The position numbers and the translations under genes were made by a program. A stretch of 64,000 nucleotides of DNA from Clostridia bacterium (GTDB taxonomy: Bacteria; Bacillota; Clostridia; UMGS1883; UMGS1540): the NCBI GenBank assembly GCA_017442155.1, contig JAFSAU010000012.1:1-64000 (forward strand). The letters are read 5' to 3'. Positions 2,190 through 16,385 of the stretch are shown piece by piece (the stretch's first letter is position 1; every line of letters starts with the position of its first letter). The notes under the pieces were generated by a model. The model was not told the DNA's origin. It ran no database searches and saw only the letters and a list, made by a program, of their open reading frames with translations.

Positions 2190-2773
2190 TTGCCGAGTCT
2201 CCTTTCTGTGCCTTTCCAGAGCCGTTTAATGTTTCCTGCGTGCCGGACAATGGCCAAAAGTGCCGTTGCGACGGCAAAAATCCGGAACCATAGGTCTGGC
2301 TGACGGATAACGGCAAGTACGGCAAACATAATGCATCCGGTGATGGAGCCAAGGGAGACGAGGCGGGTTACATAAATTACAACAACGGCGATAACCATTG
2401 CAAAAAGAGCTTCTGTAGGTGCTGCGGTAAGCATCACGGCCAGTGACGTGACAATTCCTTTGCCGCCGCGGAACCCGAAATATACCGGGAAATTATGCCC
2501 GATAACAGCGAGAAAGCCTGCTAAATACCCTCCGTATGTACCTGCCAGAAGACGGCCGAGGAGAACGGCAATAACACCTTTTAAAATGTCAATGAGGAAA
2601 ACAAGAGCGGCTGCGCCTTTTCCGAAGGTACGGAGGATATTGGTGGCCCCGGCATTTCCGCTGCCCACTGTGCGGATGTCCTTGCCCTTCAGGCGGGAGA
2701 TGATAACGGCAGAGTTAATACTTCCCAGAAGATAGCCGGCCACAGCACTGACAATGTGCCATAAAACAGTCAT
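2186..2773 (-). CDS. plsY: Acyl-phosphate:glycerol-3-phosphate acyltransferase
   Basis: Membrane enzyme that transfers an acyl group from acyl-phosphate to glycerol-3-phosphate, the first step of phosphatidic acid synthesis. All three family motifs are visible: GSGNAGATN, GHNFPVYFGFRGGKG and HAGNIKRL, separated by hydrophobic segments. About 195 aa, normal length. I choose the ATG at 2773: a GTG three codons upstream (2782) sits only two bases from the AAAGGA site, whereas the ATG has about 11 bases. Downstream of der by 17 bases and overlapping gpsA by 4. Confidence 0.95.
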   Translation of the reverse strand: MTVLWHIVSAVAGYLLGSINSAVIISRLKGKDIRTVGSGNAGATNILRTFGKGAAALVFLIDILKGVIAVLLGRLLAGTYGGYLAGFLAVIGHNFPVYFGFRGGKGIVTSLAVMLTAAPTEALFAMVIAVVVIYVTRLVSLGSITGCIMFAVLAVIRQPDLWFRIFAVATALLAIVRHAGNIKRLWKGTERRLGK

Positions 2774-2790
2774 TTTGTTCACGTTCCTTT

Positions 2791-4119
2791 CTAATTTCGG
2801 TTTTCATTCCGCTCCCGGACAATAAAGCGGAGCGGTGTTCCTGTAAGACCGAAGGTTTCCCGGATACGGTTTTCAAGGTAGCGGATATAGGAGAAGTGCG
2901 CCAGCTCCTTGTCGTTTACAAACAAAATAAATGTGGGAGGATTGGTGGAAGCCTGGGTCATATAGTATATTTTCAGCCGTTTTCCCTTGTCGGAGGGGGG
3001 CTGGACCTTTTCTGTGGCGTCTGTAAGAATGTCGTTCAGAACGCCTGTGGAAATCCGCATGGAGTTTTGCTGGTAAACCGACTGAATGAGCGGAAACAGC
3101 TTATCTACCCGCTGACCGGTTTTGGCGGAAATAAACAGATTCGGCGCATAGGTCATAAAGCTCAGGGTATCATACACACTGTTTTGAAATACCTGCATGG
3201 TTTTTGTTTCTTTTTCAATTAAATCCCACTTATTCACAAGAATAATGGATGCCTTCCCGGCTTCATGCACATATCCGGCAATTTTCGCATCCTGTTCGCT
3301 GATGCCGGCGGAGGCGTCAATCACAATTACCGCGACGTCACACCTTTCCACCGCAGTCAGTGCACGCATCACGCTGTAACGCTCCACGGTGTCATCCACC
3401 CGGCTGTGACGGCGCATTCCGGCCGTGTCAATCAGTGTAAAATGCTGTCCGTCGCGCTCTACCAAGCTGTCAATCGCGTCGCGCGTGGTACCGGGGATGT
3501 TGCTGACAATCATGCGGTTTTCGCCCAGAATATGGTTGACAAGAGAGCTTTTTCCGGCATTGGGTTTGCCTACAATGGCAACCTTGATGGAATCGTTATC
3601 CGCTTCCTCCGCAGCTTCTTCCGGAAACAACGAAATTGCTTTTTCGATTACGTCTCCCAGCCCCATGCCGTGCAGGGATGAGACAGGGTAGGGGTCACCT
3701 ATACCGAGGGAGTAAAATTCATATACGCCCACTGGAACTTCGCCCGGCGCGTCGCATTTGTTGACGACCAGAAGCGTGGGTTTTCCGGATTTCTGCAGCA
3801 TAGTGGCAATTTCCATGTCGTTTGCCGTTACGCCTTCTTTCAGATTGGTAATGAAAAGTATCACATCGGCCGTATCCATGGCGAGCTGGACCTGCAGGCG
3901 CATTTCCTGCAAAATAACATCCTTACCGGCCGGCTCAATGCCGCCCGTGTCCACCACAGAGAAAGCACGGCCGAACCACTCTGCATCCGAATATATCCGG
4001 TCGCGGGTGATGCCGGGTGTGTCCTCTACGATGGAAAGACGCTGGCCGATAATTTTATTGAAAAGCGTGGATTTTCCCACGTTTGGGCGGCCAATAACCG
4101 CCAGAATCGGTTTTGTCAT
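2791..4119 (-). CDS. der: Ribosome biogenesis GTPase Der (EngA)
   Basis: Tandem-GTPase protein that acts in maturation of the 50S ribosomal subunit. Two G domains are present: the first P-loop GRPNVGKST is at residues 10-18 and the second GKPNAGKSS in the middle of the protein, with NKxD motifs (NKCD, NKWD) and a C-terminal KH-like domain. The start is set at the ATG at 4119, 8 bases after AAAGGAG and overlapping the stop of the preceding DUF512 gene by ATGA; the longer frame from 4149 has no support. 442 aa, normal. Confidence 0.97.
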   Translation of the reverse strand: MTKPILAVIGRPNVGKSTLFNKIIGQRLSIVEDTPGITRDRIYSDAEWFGRAFSVVDTGGIEPAGKDVILQEMRLQVQLAMDTADVILFITNLKEGVTANDMEIATMLQKSGKPTLLVVNKCDAPGEVPVGVYEFYSLGIGDPYPVSSLHGMGLGDVIEKAISLFPEEAAEEADNDSIKVAIVGKPNAGKSSLVNHILGENRMIVSNIPGTTRDAIDSLVERDGQHFTLIDTAGMRRHSRVDDTVERYSVMRALTAVERCDVAVIVIDASAGISEQDAKIAGYVHEAGKASIILVNKWDLIEKETKTMQVFQNSVYDTLSFMTYAPNLFISAKTGQRVDKLFPLIQSVYQQNSMRISTGVLNDILTDATEKVQPPSDKGKRLKIYYMTQASTNPPTFILFVNDKELAHFSYIRYLENRIRETFGLTGTPLRFIVRERNENRN

Positions 4120-5426
4120 TTCTCTTGCTCCTTTCGCAGTGCATCCCAAAGTGCAAAGCCGTCACACTTTACCGGGAAAACCGGTATCCCAAGTGCTTTG
4201 GAAAGCTGGGAAACGGTCATGTCATCTAAAAAAACATCCGTGCCATCCCGAAGCATAGCTTCGGAAAAATAAGCTGCCTGCCCTAAATTGCGGGCGGCAA
4301 GCTGGGCGGCAATGTCCTGTCCTGTTAAAAGACCGGCTACGGTAATGCTTTCGCCGAAGAACCGGTTTTTGACGGCGAAAACGTCTATTTTCAGCCGGGG
4401 GAAACGCTTCATGGCAAGCGCGGCCAGCTTTTGCATCAGCGGCTCTGCCGCACATCCTGTGATAATGGAAACATGCCGCGTTTTCGCTTCCGGGTTTTCT
4501 GCCAATGCTTCCACGAATTCCTCCTCCAGACTCCGGAGAAGGCCTACGCCGTTTTCTATCTGGGCATAGCCCTCGTAGTTTTCTTCCGGCGGTACCGGTT
4601 TTTCGGCCAGAAGATAAAATTCATCCGAGGCGTAAATAAATCGGGTGCCGATTGTTTTTAAAAGTGTCTCCTGCCAGGAAGTGACTTGCCGGAGAACTTC
4701 GGCGGCGGTTTCCTTTGTGAAAGCATCCAGATGGGGAAGCCCTTCTCTATGGCGCGTAAGCCCTACGGGCACTACGGAAACGCTTTGCATATACGGGGAA
4801 AATTCCGATAAATCCGAAATGGTCTTATCCAGCTGTGCTCCGTCATTCACACCCGGAACCAGTACAATCTGGCCGTTCATGTGCAGACCACCGTCGTATA
4901 ATCGCCGGATATGACGGAGTGCCCGGCCGGCATGGCGGTTGTTCAGCATTCTGCACCGCAGGTCGGGGTCGGTGGTGTGTACTGAAATATTGATAGGCTC
5001 AAGACGCATCCGGAGCACCTTGTCAATTTCCTCATCCTTCACATTTGTAAGTGTTATGTAATTGCCGGTCAGAAAGGAAAGGCGGGCATCATCATCTTTA
5101 AAATACAGTGTTTCCCGCATTCCGGGCGGTAGCTGGTCAATAAAGCAGAAAATACAGTTGTTGGAACATTTTTTAGCACCGCCAAAGAGGGCACTGGCAA
5201 ACTGAATTCCTAAATCCGGATTTTCCGGCTCTTCAAATTCAATGATTTCCCGGCTGCCGTCCTGCTTCAAAACGGTAAGCGTTACCACCTCATCGCAGGC
5301 GTAAAACCGGAAATCCAATTCATCCTCGGGCACATGACCGTTAATTTTTTCTATTATGTCACCCGGTAAAATACCGGCTTCTGAGGCTTCCGAATCCGGA
5401 AACACAGCATGTACTATCGCACTCAT
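4116..5426 (-). CDS. DUF512 protein (PDZ plus radical-SAM-like domain)
   Basis: 436-aa member of the clostridial family usually found next to der. A PDZ-like domain (about residues 2-55, with SEAGILPGD) is followed by a radical SAM-type cluster motif with Cys87, Cys91 and Cys94 (CxxxCxxC), a TIM-barrel-like region ([20 protein letters not shown]) and a C-terminal DUF512 domain. The biochemical role is not established; a 4Fe-4S-dependent function is likely from the motif. It overlaps smpB and der by 4 nt on either side, which indicates co-translation with ribosome-quality genes. Confidence 0.9.
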
Positions 5427-5875
5427 CGGCCCTGCTCCTTCATTGCCCGGTCCATATTCCGGGCTGCATCTCTTTTTGCCGCAGTGTCCCGCTTATCGTA
5501 AAGCTTTTTACCCTTACAAAGACCAAGCGTCACCTTTACATTGGAGCCGCTCCAGTGTAGGTCCAGCGGAATCAGGGAGTAGCCCTGCTGCATTACGGAA
5601 GCGTGCAGCCGCCGGATTTCGTTCTTATGCAGAAGCAGCTTGCGGTCCCGGAGCGGGTCTTTGTTGAAAATGTTTCCCTGCTCGTAGGGACTGACGTGCA
5701 TTCCGAGGACGAAAATTTCGCCCTCCCGCACAGTGGCATAGGAATCCTTCAGAGAAACACTGCCGCCCCGTATGGATTTCACTTCTGTCCCTGACAGGGA
5801 AATACCGGCTTCATATGTTTCCTCTACAAAATAATCATGTCTTGCCTTTTTGTTTTGTGCTATGATTTTTTCCAC
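5423..5875 (-). CDS. smpB: SsrA-binding protein SmpB
   Basis: Binds tmRNA and delivers it to stalled ribosomes in trans-translation. The 150-aa protein begins with the family signature ([21 protein letters not shown]) and ends in the basic tail ([15 protein letters not shown]). The start is a GTG at 5873-5875 preceded by AAAGGAGG. The 3' end of rnr runs 41 bases into this gene, an unusually long overlap for an operon otherwise joined by 4-nt overlaps. RNase R and SmpB act together in trans-translation, so the pairing is functional. The tmRNA gene itself is not in the window. Confidence 0.97.
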
Positions 5876-7547
5876 GGTCCTCAGCCTCCTTTAGTTCAAA
5901 ATCAATACGGGAAAGTGCGCTGTCCACCCGTGCAAGCCGCACTTCCACAGCATCACCCAGACGATACACCTTGCCGGTGCGCCGTCCGGAAAGCGACAGT
6001 GTTTTTTCATTATAAACAAAATAGTCTTCCCCTAAATCACGTACATGGACAAGTCCCTCAGCGAGATTCGGCAGAGCGACGAAAAAGCCGAAATCCAAAA
6101 CGGACATAATGACGGCGGTATATTCCTCACCTACGTAATCTTCCATATAGCGGCACATCAGATACCGCACTGCTTCCCGTTCTGCTTCCACGGCCGCCTC
6201 CTCCCGTTCGGAGGAGTGAACGGCACTGCGCCGTATTTTTCCGGCAAGCCGTGCCGTGTCTTTCCCGTGAAGTACTGCCTTCACCACACGGTGACACATT
6301 AAATCCGGATACCGGCGGATGGGGGAGGTGAAGTGACAGTAATGTGTCAGGGCAAGGCCGAAGTGACCGGTGTTTTCGTGGCTGTAACGCGCCTTCATCA
6401 TGGCTCGGAGTAAGAGCATCCGCACAATATCCGACCGGCTGTCTCCTTCTATGCTTTCCAGAAGTGCAGATGCTTTCTGGCCCGAAAAACGGCCGGGAAA
6501 GGAAAGAGAGAGCGTGCGGAGCGCGTCGCCGAGACGTTCCAGCTTTTCACCGTCCGGTGCCTCGTGAACCCGGTACACAAAGGGTGCATCCAGATGAAAT
6601 ATATATTCGGCAATTACCTGATTACAAAGCACCATACAGTTTTCAATCATTCTGTCGGCCCGGCCCTCGGTCCGCTTCTCAATGGCGGTTACCCGTCCGG
6701 CTTCGTTCAGCACGATTTCCGGCTCCGGCACGCCAAAGTCGATACTACCTTTTTCGTGACGGTGTGCAGAAAGCGCATCGGAAAGTGCATCCAGAAGTTT
6801 CAGGGAAGGAAATACGGCTTCATAGCCTTTTTCCGGCTTTCCCCGGTCCAGCATGGCGGAAACGTTTCCGTACACCAGCCGGAAGTCGGAGCGGATAACG
6901 GCTTCACAGATTTCAAAGGAAAGCACCCGTCCGTTCCTCGTAAGGTCAATCACCGTGGTAAGTGTAAGACGGTCCACATCCGGGTTTAAGCTACAGATAC
7001 CGTTGGAGAGCGGGGCGGGCAGCATAGGCACCATCCGGCCCGGCAGATAGCAGCTGGTACCGCGGCTGTAAGCTTCCCGGTCGATTACGCCGTTGTTTTT
7101 CACATAGTGGGCCACATCTGCAATGTGCACATACAGCCGGAAGCCGTCCGGCGTTTCTTCAATGGAGATGGCATCGTCGAAGTCGCGGGCATCCGGCCCG
7201 TCTATGGTAAAGGTTAAAAGGGAACGCAAATCCCGCCGCCCGGCCGTACTTCGTACAGAGGCGGGAACCTTGTCGGCCGCGGCCAGAATCTCCGGCGGAA
7301 AGCTTTCGGGGAAACCGTGACTTTCTAAAATAGAGGAAAGCATAGCATCGTCGGAAAGGGATTTTTTTACAAAAAACCGGCCCTTTTGGCACTGGATTTC
7401 TCCCGTGACAGTCAGCTCCTCTAAAATAAGGGCCAGTTCGTTTCTGTCCCGTTTGGGTACGTCCAGCATGGAGGCGATTTCGTCCTCAAAAAGCGGGACC
7501 GTGGCTTGATTTCGTAAAAAAGCGTAAACCTTTTCCTTTCTGTTCAA
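5835..7547 (-). CDS. rnr: Ribonuclease R lacking cold-shock domains
   Basis: 3'-5' exoribonuclease of the RNB family. The 570-aa protein has an N-terminal winged-helix segment (about 1-60), then passes after a short stretch directly into the RNB catalytic domain (about 105-440), and ends with an S1 domain (about 470-555). The catalytic aspartates are visible: Asp116, Asp122, Asp124 and Asp125 in [13 protein letters not shown]. Typical RNase R is 700-800 aa with two cold-shock domains between the helix-turn-helix and RNB; here they are absent. The start is TTG (7545-7547) with AGGAGG 7 bases upstream. No frameshift is apparent, so this looks like a real domain loss. Confidence 0.92.
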
Positions 7548-9138: not shown

Positions 9139-10581
9139 ATGGATAAACTTGGACACATAAGCCCGGCGGATGTATTTGGCTATTTTGAAGCATTGACACG
9201 CATTCCGCACGGGTCGGGGAATATGGAGAAAATCAGTCGTTTTTGCATGGATTTTGCAGAAAAACACGGGCTTGAAGCAGAAAGGGATGCGGCAAATAAT
9301 GTCATTATCCGAAAGCCCGGCGCGGCAGGGTATGAGACTGCAAAGCCTGTTATTTTGCAGGGTCATCTGGATATGGTCTGCCAGAAGGAGGAAAACGCTG
9401 ACATAGAGTTTGAAACGGACGGGCTGGAGATTTATGCGGATGATGAATATATCCGGGCACACGGGACGACATTGGGAGCGGATAATGGTATAGCGGCTGC
9501 GATGATGCTGGCAATCTTAGCGGATGACACACTCTCTCATCCGCCCATAGAAGCAGTGTTTACAACGGATGAGGAAATCGGCATGGTAGGAGCATTGGCA
9601 CTGGATATGTCCCGGCTCAAGGGAAAACGAATGATCAATATGGATTCCGAAAACCCTGCGGTGGTGACGGTTTCCTGCGCCGGGGGCAGTGATTTCGCGG
9701 CACATATTCCCGTGAAACGGAGCTATAAAAACGGCAGATGCGTCCGTCTGCGTATAAAAGGACTTGCCGGCGGCCATTCCGGCGTGGAAATCGACAAAGG
9801 GAGAGTGAACGCGAATCTTTTAATGGGAAGAATACTGAATCACCTCCGCCAAAGCCATGATTTCGGCATAATTCGTCTTGACGGCGGCGATAAAGGGAAT
9901 GCAATTCCCACGAGCTGTACAGCGGAGCTTTTTACAGGGGATGCCGGTACACTTACAGAGGAATTACGACGCTACACGGAAATCGTAGGCACAGAAATTC
10001 GGGCACGCGAAGCAGGCTTTTCGGTAGAGATTACTATTTCAGACGAAGGGGATTTTGCGGTAATAGATACCGCAACAGGTGAAAAACTTCTGTATTATTT
10101 ACTGCTTGCACCAAACGGTGTGCAGGAAATGAGTGCCGAAATTCATAATTTGGTGGAAACGTCACTGAATTTGGGAATTCTGAAAACAGAAGAGGATACG
10201 GTTACCATGGCATTTGCTCTGCGTAGCAATAAAAAGACGGCACTTGCTTTTTTGGAGGAAAAGCTGGCGGCGTTTTTCGGCACGGCAGATTGTCAGATTG
10301 TAACCGGGGGACATTATCCGCCGTGGGAATACAGAAAAGGCTCTGAAATGGAACGTCTTTATATGGAAAAGTATAAAGAAAAGACAGGGGAAGCTCCGCG
10401 GGTGGAGGCAATTCATGCAGGACTGGAGTGCGGTGTTTTCGCGGCAGGTATCCCGGGGCTTGACTGCATTTCCATAGGACCTGAAATGCATGGCATACAC
10501 ACAGTGCATGAAAAACTCAGTATCCGGGGGACAAAAATACTTTATGAAATCGTACTTGAAATGCTCAAAGCAATGCGATGA
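9139..10581 (+). CDS. pepD: Aminoacyl-histidine dipeptidase (PepD, peptidase M20C)
   Basis: Zinc-dependent cytosolic dipeptidase with broad specificity, including Xaa-His dipeptides. 480 aa, normal. Metal-site residues fit the M20 pattern: His76 and Asp78 in GHLDMV, Asp115 in GADNG, and Glu145-Glu146 in TTDEEIG. The lid/dimerisation domain lies in the middle. RBS GGAGGG precedes the ATG. The OPT peptide transporter follows immediately, so imported oligopeptides and this dipeptidase may belong to one peptide-use module, although OPT has its own promoter. Confidence 0.95.
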   Translation: MDKLGHISPADVFGYFEALTRIPHGSGNMEKISRFCMDFAEKHGLEAERDAANNVIIRKPGAAGYETAKPVILQGHLDMVCQKEENADIEFETDGLEIYADDEYIRAHGTTLGADNGIAAAMMLAILADDTLSHPPIEAVFTTDEEIGMVGALALDMSRLKGKRMINMDSENPAVVTVSCAGGSDFAAHIPVKRSYKNGRCVRLRIKGLAGGHSGVEIDKGRVNANLLMGRILNHLRQSHDFGIIRLDGGDKGNAIPTSCTAELFTGDAGTLTEELRRYTEIVGTEIRAREAGFSVEITISDEGDFAVIDTATGEKLLYYLLLAPNGVQEMSAEIHNLVETSLNLGILKTEEDTVTMAFALRSNKKTALAFLEEKLAAFFGTADCQIVTGGHYPPWEYRKGSEMERLYMEKYKEKTGEAPRVEAIHAGLECGVFAAGIPGLDCISIGPEMHGIHTVHEKLSIRGTKILYEIVLEMLKAMR

Positions 10582-10619: not shown

Positions 10620-10669
10620 GTAAAAAATAGAAAAAGAGACTGTCCTTTATGGGCAGCGGAGGGAGTAGT

Positions 10670-12574
10670 ATGAGTAATCAGAATGAATTCAAGCCGTATA
10701 TACCGGCTGAAAAGGTGACACCGGAAATTACGGTGACTTCAATCATCATGGGTATGATTCTGGCTGTAATATTCGGAGCGGCAAATGCATATCTCGGTCT
10801 CCGGGTCGGGATGACAGTTTCCGCATCCATTCCGGCTGCGGTTATTTCCATGGGTGTAATTCGCATTATAATGCGAAAAAACTCCATTTTGGAAAGCAAC
10901 CTTGTGCAAACCATAGGCTCTGCAGGTGAATCTCTTGCGGCAGGAGCTATATTTACGCTTCCGGCCCTGTTTTTATGGGCGGCAGAGGGAAAAATGGACA
11001 AGCCGGATGTGCTTTCCATGACGCTGATTGCTCTTTTGGGCGGTCTTTTAGGTGTGTTTTTCATGGTACCGCTTCGTAATGCACTGATTGTAAAAGAACA
11101 TGGCATTCTTCCGTATCCGGAGGGAACTGCATGTGCAGAAGTGCTTTTGGCAGGCGAAAAGGGCGGTGCAAATGCTTCCACCGTTTTTGCCGGGATGGGC
11201 TTTGCCGCGATATTTAAGTTTATTATCGACGGTTTGAAGCTTGTTGCAGGAGAAGTGTCGGTACATGTAAAGGGCTTTGCAGGCGAAATCGGCACACAGA
11301 TTTATCCGGCCGTTATGAGCGTGGGGTATATCTGCGGTGCAAGAATTTCTTCATACATGTTCGCGGGCGGCGTGTTGAGCTGGCTCGTTCTGATTCCGAT
11401 GATTGTACTGTTCGGCGAAAATGTTATCCTGTATCCGGGAACGGAAACCGTCGGCACGATGTTTGCCGAAGGCGGGGCGAGTGCCATCTGGAGCTCCTAT
11501 ATCCGTTATATCGGCGCAGGGGCACTGGCGGCCGGCGGTATTATAAGCCTTATTAAATCGTTACCGCTTATTGTGAAAACCTTCGGCGGAGCAATGAAGA
11601 GTATGTCGGGTACAAAGATGCATTCGGAGCTTCGGACGGCGCAGGATCTTAGTTTAAAGTTTGTACTTTGTGCGATTGCTGTTTTAACACTTCTTGTCTG
11701 GCTGATTCCTGCCATTCCCGTGTCGCTTATCGGTGCTGTAATTGTTGTTGTATTCGGCTTCTTCTTTGCAACGGTTTCGTCCCGCATGGTGGGCCTTGTC
11801 GGTAGCAGTAACAACCCGGTTTCCGGTATGGCGATTGCAACGCTTCTGATTACAACACTGATTTTAAAGGCGATGGGAACAGAAGGTGCCATAGGGATGC
11901 AGAGTGCCATTTCTATTGGCTCCATCATTTGCATCGTGTCGGCAATTGCAGGTGATACTTCCCAGGATTTAAAGACGGGATATCTGCTCGGTGCCACGCC
12001 TAAAAAACAGCAGATTGGTGAAATGATTGGTGTTGTGTCCGCGGCTATCGCCATAAGCGGCACACTGTATCTGCTGGACAGTGCATGGGGCTTTGGCTCC
12101 GAACAGCTCGGTGCACCGCAGGCAACCCTGATGAAGCTGATTATCGAGGGTGTAATGCAGGGAAATCTGCCATGGGCACTTGTGTTTATCGGTGTGTTTA
12201 TTGCCGTGGTAGCAGAGGTTGTGGGGATTCCCGTGCTCCCGTTTGCAATCGGCGTATACCTTCCCGTGCAACTGAATGCCTGCATTATGGTGGGCGGCCT
12301 CATCCGTCTTGCACTTGATAAGATGAAGCGTGACAAGGAAGAAAAGACGGCTATCATAAATGACGGTATTCTGTTTTGCTCCGGTATGATTGCAGGCGAA
12401 GGACTTGTCGGCATTGCCCTTGCACTTTTAGCTGTATTTGGTCTTGACGCTGCACTTGATCTTTCTGCGAAGCTCGGTATTTCGCCGCTTTTCTTTAATG
12501 TCGGCAGCCTTGTTCTTTTCGGAATTATCATTTTGAGCGTTCTGAAATTTTCACTCTGGAGAAAACGCAGATAG
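10670..12574 (+). CDS. OPT-family oligopeptide transporter
   Basis: 634-aa polytopic membrane protein of the OPT family, which imports small peptides (or metal chelates in other clades) by proton symport. Many hydrophobic segments run along the whole length; the conserved NAYLGLRVGMTVSASIPA motif lies near the N-terminus and the NNPVSGMAIATLL motif in the middle. The start is the ATG at 10670 behind GGAGGG; an earlier in-frame ATG at 10649 lies before that site. It is followed after 3 bases by a PqqD-like gene, so the two are co-transcribed. Next to pepD, a peptide substrate is the best guess. Confidence 0.93.
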   Translation: MSNQNEFKPYIPAEKVTPEITVTSIIMGMILAVIFGAANAYLGLRVGMTVSASIPAAVISMGVIRIIMRKNSILESNLVQTIGSAGESLAAGAIFTLPALFLWAAEGKMDKPDVLSMTLIALLGGLLGVFFMVPLRNALIVKEHGILPYPEGTACAEVLLAGEKGGANASTVFAGMGFAAIFKFIIDGLKLVAGEVSVHVKGFAGEIGTQIYPAVMSVGYICGARISSYMFAGGVLSWLVLIPMIVLFGENVILYPGTETVGTMFAEGGASAIWSSYIRYIGAGALAAGGIISLIKSLPLIVKTFGGAMKSMSGTKMHSELRTAQDLSLKFVLCAIAVLTLLVWLIPAIPVSLIGAVIVVVFGFFFATVSSRMVGLVGSSNNPVSGMAIATLLITTLILKAMGTEGAIGMQSAISIGSIICIVSAIAGDTSQDLKTGYLLGATPKKQQIGEMIGVVSAAIAISGTLYLLDSAWGFGSEQLGAPQATLMKLIIEGVMQGNLPWALVFIGVFIAVVAEVVGIPVLPFAIGVYLPVQLNACIMVGGLIRLALDKMKRDKEEKTAIINDGILFCSGMIAGEGLVGIALALLAVFGLDAALDLSAKLGISPLFFNVGSLVLFGIIILSVLKFSLWRKRR

Positions 12575-13935: not shown

Positions 13936-13990
13936 AAAGCAGGGCTTCTGCTACCATGAATTGTGCATGGTAGCAGAAGCCCTGTTTTTA
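13936..13990 (+). terminator. Long perfect terminator hairpin
   Basis: 19-bp perfect arms 13940-13958 / 13966-13984 with a 7-base loop, A-run before and T-run after, so it can terminate in both directions. Confidence 0.9.
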
Positions 13991-14079: not shown

Positions 14080-14108
14080 TAGACAGATTGTTTTTGGTCT
14101 GGTATAAT
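14080..14108 (+). promoter_or_regulatory. Sigma-A promoter for HTH-kinase/murQ operon
   Basis: TAGACA (14080-14085), 17-base spacer, TATAAT (14103-14108), 46 bases before the start codon. Confidence 0.8.
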
Positions 14109-14153: not shown

Positions 14154-15311
14154 ATGTTCGACAAAAAGCTTTTAGGAAACAACATAAAGCGGGAACGTGA
14201 AAGGCATGGAATGACACAAAGCCAGCTTGCAGAGAAACTGTATTTAACGTATCAATCCGTTTCCGGTTGGGAACGGGGAACGCACCCGCCGGATCTTGAC
14301 AATATTTGTGAGCTTTCTAAAATATTCGGTATTTCCATAGACACTCTGCTTTTTAAGCGATGCGGTTACGACAGATATATGGTAGCCGTTGACGGCGGTG
14401 GCAGCAAGACAGAATTTGTTTTGTTTACGGAATCCGGTGAGGTTATAAGGCGGGAAAAGCTGTCAAGCTCTAACCCAAACAGCGGTGGGGCAGAAAACTG
14501 CATTAGTGTACTTTTGCAGGGGATAGAACGTCTGCGGTCAGATGCATATAAAATCGATGCCATTTTTGTAGGGATTGCCGGGGGAGCTTCTTCCGTTGCA
14601 ACCGCGCAGATTGTCCGTACACTTCAGGAAAAATACGGTAGCTGTTCTGTTTCGTGTGACAGTGATACGGTAAACGTTCTTGGGTTTGCACCTGACCCGT
14701 TAAATGCAATGGGGATGATTGTCGGTACCAGCTCCAGTGTGTTTTTTAGAAACAATGGATTGATGCAGTATACCGGTGGCTGGGGATACCTGTTTGACAA
14801 AGGCGGAAGCGGCTTTGATATCGGCAGGGATGCCATTCGGGAAGCACTCTCGGCGTCTGACGGAATGAAAGACGGAAATGAGTTTGTAGAGATAATAACA
14901 AGTGAAATCGGTGAGGCGAGAAAAAACCTGGGAGAGCTTTACAGAATGAATGTGCAGGGCGTGGCCGCGCTGGCTCCGGTAGTATTCCGGGCGGCGGAGA
15001 AAGGGAACAAGGATGCACTTTCGATACTCGAACGAAACGCCGGAAGAATGGCAGAACTCATTAAAACGGCACAGAAGAAAAGCGGCTATAAGGGAAAGAT
15101 TATCGGCGGTGGCAGCCTTTTGCGGGATGCAATTTACAAGGATATGATACAGGAAAAATCCGGTGTTGAAATTATGGTTCCGGAGATTCCTCCCATATAC
15201 GGGGCGGCTGTGGAATGTTGTCTCAGAAACGGAATTAAAACAGATGAATCATTTGGTGAAAAATTTGCAATGTCGTATAAAAGGAGGAAGCAGAAAAATG
15301 CTGAAAACTGA
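14154..15311 (+). CDS. Xre-type HTH fused to BadF-family amino-sugar kinase
   Basis: 385-aa two-domain protein. Residues about 8-65 form an Xre/Cro helix-turn-helix (MTQSQLAEKL, SVSGWERG). From about 75 it is a BadF/BadG-type ASKHA kinase with DGGGSKTEF (80-88), IVGTSSS, the GGWGYLFDKGGSGFDIGRDA motif and a final GGSLL/PIYGAA region, as in N-acetylglucosamine kinases and clostridial MurK. Next to a murQ-type gene, MurNAc or GlcNAc phosphorylation is the likely activity. The fusion suggests a kinase that also controls transcription, in the manner of ROK repressors but built on a different kinase family. Start ATG after GGAGG. It overlaps the next gene by 14 nt. Confidence 0.88.
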   Translation: MFDKKLLGNNIKRERERHGMTQSQLAEKLYLTYQSVSGWERGTHPPDLDNICELSKIFGISIDTLLFKRCGYDRYMVAVDGGGSKTEFVLFTESGEVIRREKLSSSNPNSGGAENCISVLLQGIERLRSDAYKIDAIFVGIAGGASSVATAQIVRTLQEKYGSCSVSCDSDTVNVLGFAPDPLNAMGMIVGTSSSVFFRNNGLMQYTGGWGYLFDKGGSGFDIGRDAIREALSASDGMKDGNEFVEIITSEIGEARKNLGELYRMNVQGVAALAPVVFRAAEKGNKDALSILERNAGRMAELIKTAQKKSGYKGKIIGGGSLLRDAIYKDMIQEKSGVEIMVPEIPPIYGAAVECCLRNGIKTDESFGEKFAMSYKRRKQKNAEN

Positions 15312-16284
15312 AATGCGAAATCCACATACCGCACATATTGATAAAATGAGCACTATGGAAATGCTGGAGGCCATAAACCGTGAAAACTACAATGCGGTGC
15401 GGGCAGTGGAGGAAGCAAGTGCGGAAATCGCAAAAGCCATTGATATGATAACAGAGGCGATTCAAAACGGACACAGGCTTTTTTATATCGGTGCCGGTAC
15501 CAGCGGCCGCCTCGGCGTTCTGGATGCAGTAGAATGTCCGCCGACCTACGGCGTTCCGCCGGAATTGGTTGTGGGAATCCTCGCAGGGGGAGAAAAATGT
15601 ATGTTCCGCTCCTCTGAGGGCGCGGAAGATGCGGAGGAAGCCGGGATTCGTGATGTGGCAGAGGTAGAAGAAGGAGACGTCATAGTAGGCATCTCAGTAG
15701 CAGGCGGTGCGGCCTATGTGGCAGGTGCGCTTCGGGAAGCAAAACGGAAGGGTGCAAAAGCCATAGCATTGACCTGCAATGAAAATACGAAAATAGAAAA
15801 AGAAGCCGACCTTACCATTATTACCGATACGGGTGCCGAAGCAACGGTTTTGGGACGATTTTGTAATACAAAGCTTCCGGCGTTTGTGATTAAGGAATGC
15901 GGCGATTTTACATCCGTATTTTGCGGCACAAAGCTTTTGCAGGGCGAGGTCATCAGAAGTATTGCGCATTTTGCAGGCTGCCATGTTTATACGGAGGAAA
16001 ATGACGTACTGTATGCAAACCGGAATTTTATTACGATTCATGCGGCAAGGGCAGGGCGCAAGCATATCAGGCTTCGTGAATGCTGTCATCCGTATGAGCT
16101 CTATGAAGAACGTTTTTATGATCCGGGAGAGGCAATCACACTGGAGATGGCAGAAGGGGAAACAAAAATGTTTGCGCTTTTACAGGAAAAGAAAAAGCCG
16201 GTTTTGCTTGCAGATGTAATGAATATCCCTGCTGCCGGAGAGCAGGAAGGGAAAGTCGCTGTTAGGAGACATCTGATTTTATGA
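15298..16284 (+). CDS. Chimeric MurQ: etherase N-terminal half joined to an unrelated C-terminal module
   Basis: The first about 175 residues match MurNAc-6-phosphate etherase: NPHTAHIDKMST, the SIS-domain GAGTSGRLGVLDA, and both catalytic glutamates, Glu79 (DAVECPPTYG) and Glu110 (EGAEDAEEAG), at the E. coli spacing of 31. After about residue 175 (nt 15820-15840) the expected TGPEVI-GSTR-KAGTA segment and the C-terminal helical domain are missing. Residues about 180-328 instead resemble, from memory, the C-terminal segment of large glycoside-hydrolase-like proteins (LGRF, DFTSVFCG, HVYTEENDVLYANRNF, PYELYEERFY, GETKMFAL). No stop or frameshift marks the joint. Start ATG after AAAGGAGG. An in-frame deletion fusing two neighbours, or a misassembly, would explain it; etherase activity is doubtful. 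Confidence 0.8.
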   Translation: MLKTEMRNPHTAHIDKMSTMEMLEAINRENYNAVRAVEEASAEIAKAIDMITEAIQNGHRLFYIGAGTSGRLGVLDAVECPPTYGVPPELVVGILAGGEKCMFRSSEGAEDAEEAGIRDVAEVEEGDVIVGISVAGGAAYVAGALREAKRKGAKAIALTCNENTKIEKEADLTIITDTGAEATVLGRFCNTKLPAFVIKECGDFTSVFCGTKLLQGEVIRSIAHFAGCHVYTEENDVLYANRNFITIHAARAGRKHIRLRECCHPYELYEERFYDPGEAITLEMAEGETKMFALLQEKKKPVLLADVMNIPAAGEQEGKVAVRRHLIL

Positions 16285-16347: not shown

Positions 16348-16385
16348 AGCAGGAATCCTATTATGCATAGGGTTCCTGTTTTTTG
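16348..16385 (+). terminator. Terminator after murQ-like gene
   Basis: Arms 16351-16360 / 16368-16377 (10 bp, one wobble pair) followed by a T-run. Confidence 0.85.

Follow-up and report, generated by a model that had tools for sequence, protein, structure and literature searches.

Among the structurally described proteins, the MurQ enzymes (4s12, 4lzj and 1nri) are the closest to the first part of the gene reported here, and the GH42 beta-galactosidases 3tts and 5e9a and the beta-1,2-glucosyltransferase 7vkz have an overall fold like that of the 739-aa protein to which its second part is related. NagS is a SIS enzyme related to MurQ, and its substrate is bound by residues from a movable C-terminal loop of the adjacent subunit (PMC12680351). 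In the present study, a window of 64,000 nucleotides from a Clostridia genome was analysed, and the features of the locus are collected in Table 1. The encoded protein resembles the MurQ structures in its first 182 residues and has both catalytic glutamates and the SIS fold (head Z 18.6-19.6), but it is without the last SIS part (GSTRxKAGTA) and the C-terminal helices, and its tail is foreign. The part of MurQ that corresponds to the substrate-contacting C-terminal loop of NagS is also missing. We consider it likely that the fusion goes back to a genuine deletion in a gene cluster copy that is redundant and degenerating, and that an intact copy of this cluster on another contig of the same genome (C24) supplies the etherase. 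The fusion is probably a deletion scar and not a new enzyme.

Table 1. Features of the fusion locus and of its upstream neighbourhood (positions in the window)
Feature	Position	Strand	Evidence
Terminator-like hairpin, 20-pair stem, T-runs on both sides, upstream of the cassette	13939..13985	.	consensus scan only
Promoter-like TAGACA-17-TATAAT (11/12, extended -10)	14080..14108	+	consensus scan only
HTH_3 + BadF/BadG-type sugar kinase, 385 aa	14154..15311	+	Pfam BcrAD_BadFG 3.1e-23, HTH_3 3.4e-14
Fusion ORF, 328 aa	15298..16284	+	ORF reading with profile and genome matches
MurQ head, residues 1-182: the N-terminal helices followed by the greater part of the SIS domain; Glu79 and Glu110 included	15298..15843	+	
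Junction DTGAE/ATVLG	15835..15852	+	alignment with MurQ and GH relatives
Tail, residues ~183-295: terminal beta-sandwich of a GH42-like protein, preceded by the final strands and helix of its alpha/beta (trimerisation-like) domain	15844..16182	+	
C-terminal extension, past the stop of most GH relatives	16183..16281	+	
Terminator-like hairpin 3' of the fusion	16348..16380	+	consensus scan only

Residues 2-182 of the fusion were identified as MurQ by NCBIfam (PRK05441, E 3.6e-65; TIGR00274, E 2.7e-65), and both alignments stopped at residue 182 of 328. Sequence comparison with the three solved MurQ structures ended at 182-183, and the SIS-type domains of Pfam reached residue 191. The fusion covers positions 6-188 of the 300 in PRK05441 and 1-183 of the 291 in TIGR00274, and no match over the whole length of MurQ was obtained. 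The bit scores of the fusion and the intact C24 paralogue were 219.9 vs 333 for PRK05441 and 220.3 vs 295.5 for TIGR00274. The fusion passes the PRK05441 cutoff (168) and fails that of TIGR00274 (302), and because the intact C24 paralogue fails the latter too, this cutoff alone is uninformative. Both Glu79 and Glu110, which we take to be the counterparts of Glu83 and Glu114 in E. coli MurQ, are kept in the alignment with MurQ relatives, and the head has kept 45 of the 46 MurQ residues that are otherwise invariant. A preliminary description of this DNA had ended the MurQ homology at about residue 175; the homology and the two glutamates stand, and the limit has been moved to 182. Its observation that the end of the SIS domain and the helical C-terminus are gone was borne out, since GSTRMKAGTA and the helices are present in the C24 MurQ and absent from the fusion. 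The part of this segment that was read was present in all 9 relatives compared at the junction site. The fusion is probably not an etherase.

The second half of the protein gave no Pfam domain match (residues 181-328), and NCBIfam had none past residue 182. Residues 181-297 correspond to the C-terminus of a protein of 739 aa encoded on contig C24 (44-46% identity, E 4e-30), and they align solely with its residues ~624-738 of 739, so that the catalytic TIM barrel and the acid residues in it are absent. The parent family is GH42-like, with proteins of 739-775 aa, and is covered by no Pfam or NCBIfam model; the fusion retains the last ~115 residues. Identity of the tail to seven relatives was 44-49%, which establishes homology to the C-terminal segment of the family. 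The 739-aa protein itself matches no Pfam or NCBIfam model and has no meaningful sequence match among solved structures. Its AlphaFold model (mean pLDDT 75.6, pTM 0.85) resembles GH42 beta-galactosidases and related three-domain glycosidases in Foldseek, with E to 4e-23 and TM 0.57-0.63 at an identity of 10-13%. The glycoside-hydrolase-like character first ascribed to the tail thus holds, and the fusion differs from 3tts, 5e9a and 7vkz in being barrel-less. An ordinary MurQ with a C-terminus that has simply diverged would account for the conserved head and for nothing else. This reading is refuted and has practically no chance of being right, because residues 181-297 match the GH42-like C-terminus and no MurQ; an end-to-end alignment of the C-terminal half with ordinary MurQ proteins was sought as well, and there is no such alignment.

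Matches to the GH42-like family were found in 25 of the 391 class genomes sampled, seven or eight of them near full length. The protein on C24 (24651-26867 of that contig in the source genome) is sporadic in the class, and it lies beside murQ and an HTH-BadF kinase both in its own genome and in a genome of another family (G078). It may be regarded as a candidate glycosidase of muropeptides or amino sugars. In a Treponema metagenome bin, one contig (L028, positions 1-132) starts within a GH tail, which is 74% identical to the tail in the window; the latter is closer to this fragment than to the C24 paralogue (44%). In the part common to both, dN is 0.10 and synonymous sites are saturated, and this segment was under strong constraint. 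The Treponema-bin tail may reflect gene transfer or mis-binning. Because of this fragment at a contig end, 200 Treponema genomes were searched; they contained no fusion and no further tail, and MurQ homologues in a few members. The first part of the C-terminal extension of the fusion is like the Treponema-bin tail (KMFALLPEKKAPDLV), and a search for a homologue of its last ~20 residues gave no match.

Contig C24 carries the undeleted arrangement. In the C24 locus (L006), on one strand and in this order, are a kinase (2677-3819), murQ (3834-4637, 267 aa) and the GH42-like gene (4652-6871, 739 aa). In the window, a kinase of this HTH-BadF type is followed by the fusion. The two loci are alike in order and strand, in a homologous kinase (51% identity), in the MurQ head (67% over fusion residues 1-183) and in the GH tail, whose match lies 2.1 kb further along C24; they differ in that murQ and GH are separate on C24. 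The MurQ heads of the window and C24 are sisters in the tree (support 99/97), with branch lengths of 0.34 and 0.49, respectively. In G078, murQ and then the HTH-BadF kinase come after the GH gene, and since the three are neighbours in another family too, we regard the cluster as a real unit. The tetranucleotide correlation of C24 with the window was 0.96, as against 0.70-0.88 for loci of other genomes, and therefore both copies come from one organism; the stated contamination of the source genome is 0.09%. Neither MurQ nor a GH42-like gene was found in the rest of the family sample (5 other genomes), for which reason the clusters were probably acquired.

At the junction site, MurQ relatives read DTG(A/P/E)EV(I/V)TGSTRMKAG, GH relatives read DDPEAEVLGHYC, DEKATVLAKYA or DDDAKVLARFC, and the fusion reads DTGAEATVLGRFC. 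The switch, first put at about nt 15830, is real, and its position has been moved to about nt 15840-15846. As had been stated earlier, the frame is unbroken across it: there is a single ORF of 328 aa with no internal stop, ending at the stop codon 16282-16284. The stretch missing from the window corresponds to about 4380-6526 of the C24 locus, that is 2.15 kb, with one end point at murQ codon 182 and the other in the GH gene at codon ~625. On C24, the 5' part of murQ and the 3' end of the GH gene are the exact counterparts of the two halves, and this strongly supports the earlier proposal that an in-frame deletion joined murQ to a downstream glycosidase gene.

We propose that a three-gene peptidoglycan-sugar cluster, made up of the HTH-BadF kinase, murQ and the GH42-like glycosidase, is present in the window as a second copy that has diverged. 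This copy would have lost the ~2.15 kb between the two codons, leaving the ends in frame. The loss probably occurred through a very short match near GCCGAA at both sites, of at most a few bases (about GAA, perhaps GCCGAA). Such sharing fits a deletion by short-match recombination; because the exact parent sequence is gone, the mechanism is one that we infer. The product would consist of an incomplete SIS domain joined to a GH42-type C-terminus that is likewise incomplete and lacks the catalytic barrel. Etherase and glycosidase activity would both have been lost, and the window copy would be redundant beside the presumably active C24 copy.

An assembly error at the junction, with a true locus that is intact or two strains that were joined, was also considered, as the genome is a draft of 51 contigs with 92% completeness. 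We hold this to be unlikely. The few bases that MurQ and GH share at the junction are below assembler k-mers, and the murQ 3' end and GH body of the window copy were sought in the rest of the genome and were not found. Moreover, codon preference shows no break along the tail, where it is positive in the frame of the fusion and negative in both alternative frames.

The MurQ-GH junction was found in 0 of 2 other genomes of the genus, 5 of the family, 27 of the order and 390 of the class. In the class sample (391 genomes), every other MurQ match ended at query residue 181-193, and the near-full-length GH matches were all in frames of at least 749 aa. When the tail alone was searched in the phylum sample, nothing was found outside the window's own genome, although the class holds GH relatives. 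A literature search for MurQ with glycoside hydrolase gave no description of such a fusion. The sole match to a degenerate junction pattern, in a viral contig (L085), was rejected as chance by its translation. The alternative raised in the preliminary description, a new domain combination, is therefore unsupported, the junction being in no other genus, family, order or class genome sampled.

The neighbouring kinase is a paralogue of the C24 kinase. It shows six departures at near-invariant positions (I79V, T84S, G193S, R206Y, D285N and G321S) in a comparison from which L069 (wrong ORF) and L070 (cut at a contig end) were left out. Unique changes numbered 54 in the window kinase vs 17 in the C24 kinase (chi2 19.3, with one outgroup), and the window kinase has evolved faster than its paralogue. 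These changes and departures are as expected of a degenerating copy. The C-terminus of the kinase overlaps the ribosome site of the fusion gene, where the ATG at 15298 is preceded by AAAAGGAGG, a good ribosome site. The promoter-like site upstream of the kinase is the probable start of a kinase-fusion transcription unit; the scan of the region gave 8 such sites vs 5.1 expected.

These observations bear on another possibility, that of a functional new protein. Here the head would bind MurNAc-6-P or GlcNAc-6-P as a sensor or scaffold, the beta-sandwich would serve as a binding or oligomerisation module, and the partner would be the preceding diverged HTH-kinase in the operon. The frame is open, the head is conserved, and the transcription and translation signals are intact, the promoter-like and terminator-like ones as given by consensus scan; in addition, the divergence of the HTH-bearing kinase could itself be a change of role. 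We nevertheless find this reading unlikely, since the fusion occurs only once among the genomes searched, both breakpoints fall inside domains (on the SIS side and on the GH side), leaving both incomplete, and the MurQ part matching the substrate-binding C-terminal loop of NagS is absent (PMC12680351). In the AlphaFold model of the fusion, pLDDT is 80-96 over most of the head (41 to ~175), near 40 at 178-231 and ~80 in the beta-sandwich (250-300); in the intact GH the same segment (618-668) has 80-93. The low confidence at residues 178-231 speaks against function; as the alignment of the fusion was shallow, this evidence is moderate. Neither head nor tail shows a significant excess of changes vs C24, and this absence of accelerated change leaves room for residual function. 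A recent deletion explains the conserved head and the lack of excess changes without any function. The undecayed look of the gene, with its head, tail, ribosome site and promoter-like and terminator-like signals, fits a recent deletion but also a retained function. Quite unlikely, in our judgement, is a working chimera in which a MurQ head without etherase activity still binds amino-sugar phosphates and, stabilised by the glycosidase beta-sandwich, forms a sensing or regulatory pair with the diverged HTH-kinase.

Taken as a deletion, the locus offers a clear example of neighbouring genes turned into a chimeric ORF in frame, with the undeleted arrangement kept in the same genome. Because it passes the PRK05441 cutoff, the fusion may be labelled as MurQ by annotation pipelines. 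The cluster itself matters somewhat more, because the gene neighbourhood connects MurNAc recycling with a GH42-like family that is uncharacterised.

Some further observations were made in the region. Both MurQ copies of the genome, the one in the window at 15682-15720 and the one on C24, read SVAGGAAY where most relatives have SASGxAxY, and the same change is seen in one relative (L069); the serine lost may be among those that bind phosphate in MurQ. The upstream hairpin sits between an alpha/beta hydrolase gene and the kinase, and is likely a bidirectional terminator. Beside the cluster, an OPT-family oligopeptide transporter gene (10649-12574) adjoins an M20 peptidase gene (9139-10581), making up a peptide-use neighbourhood.
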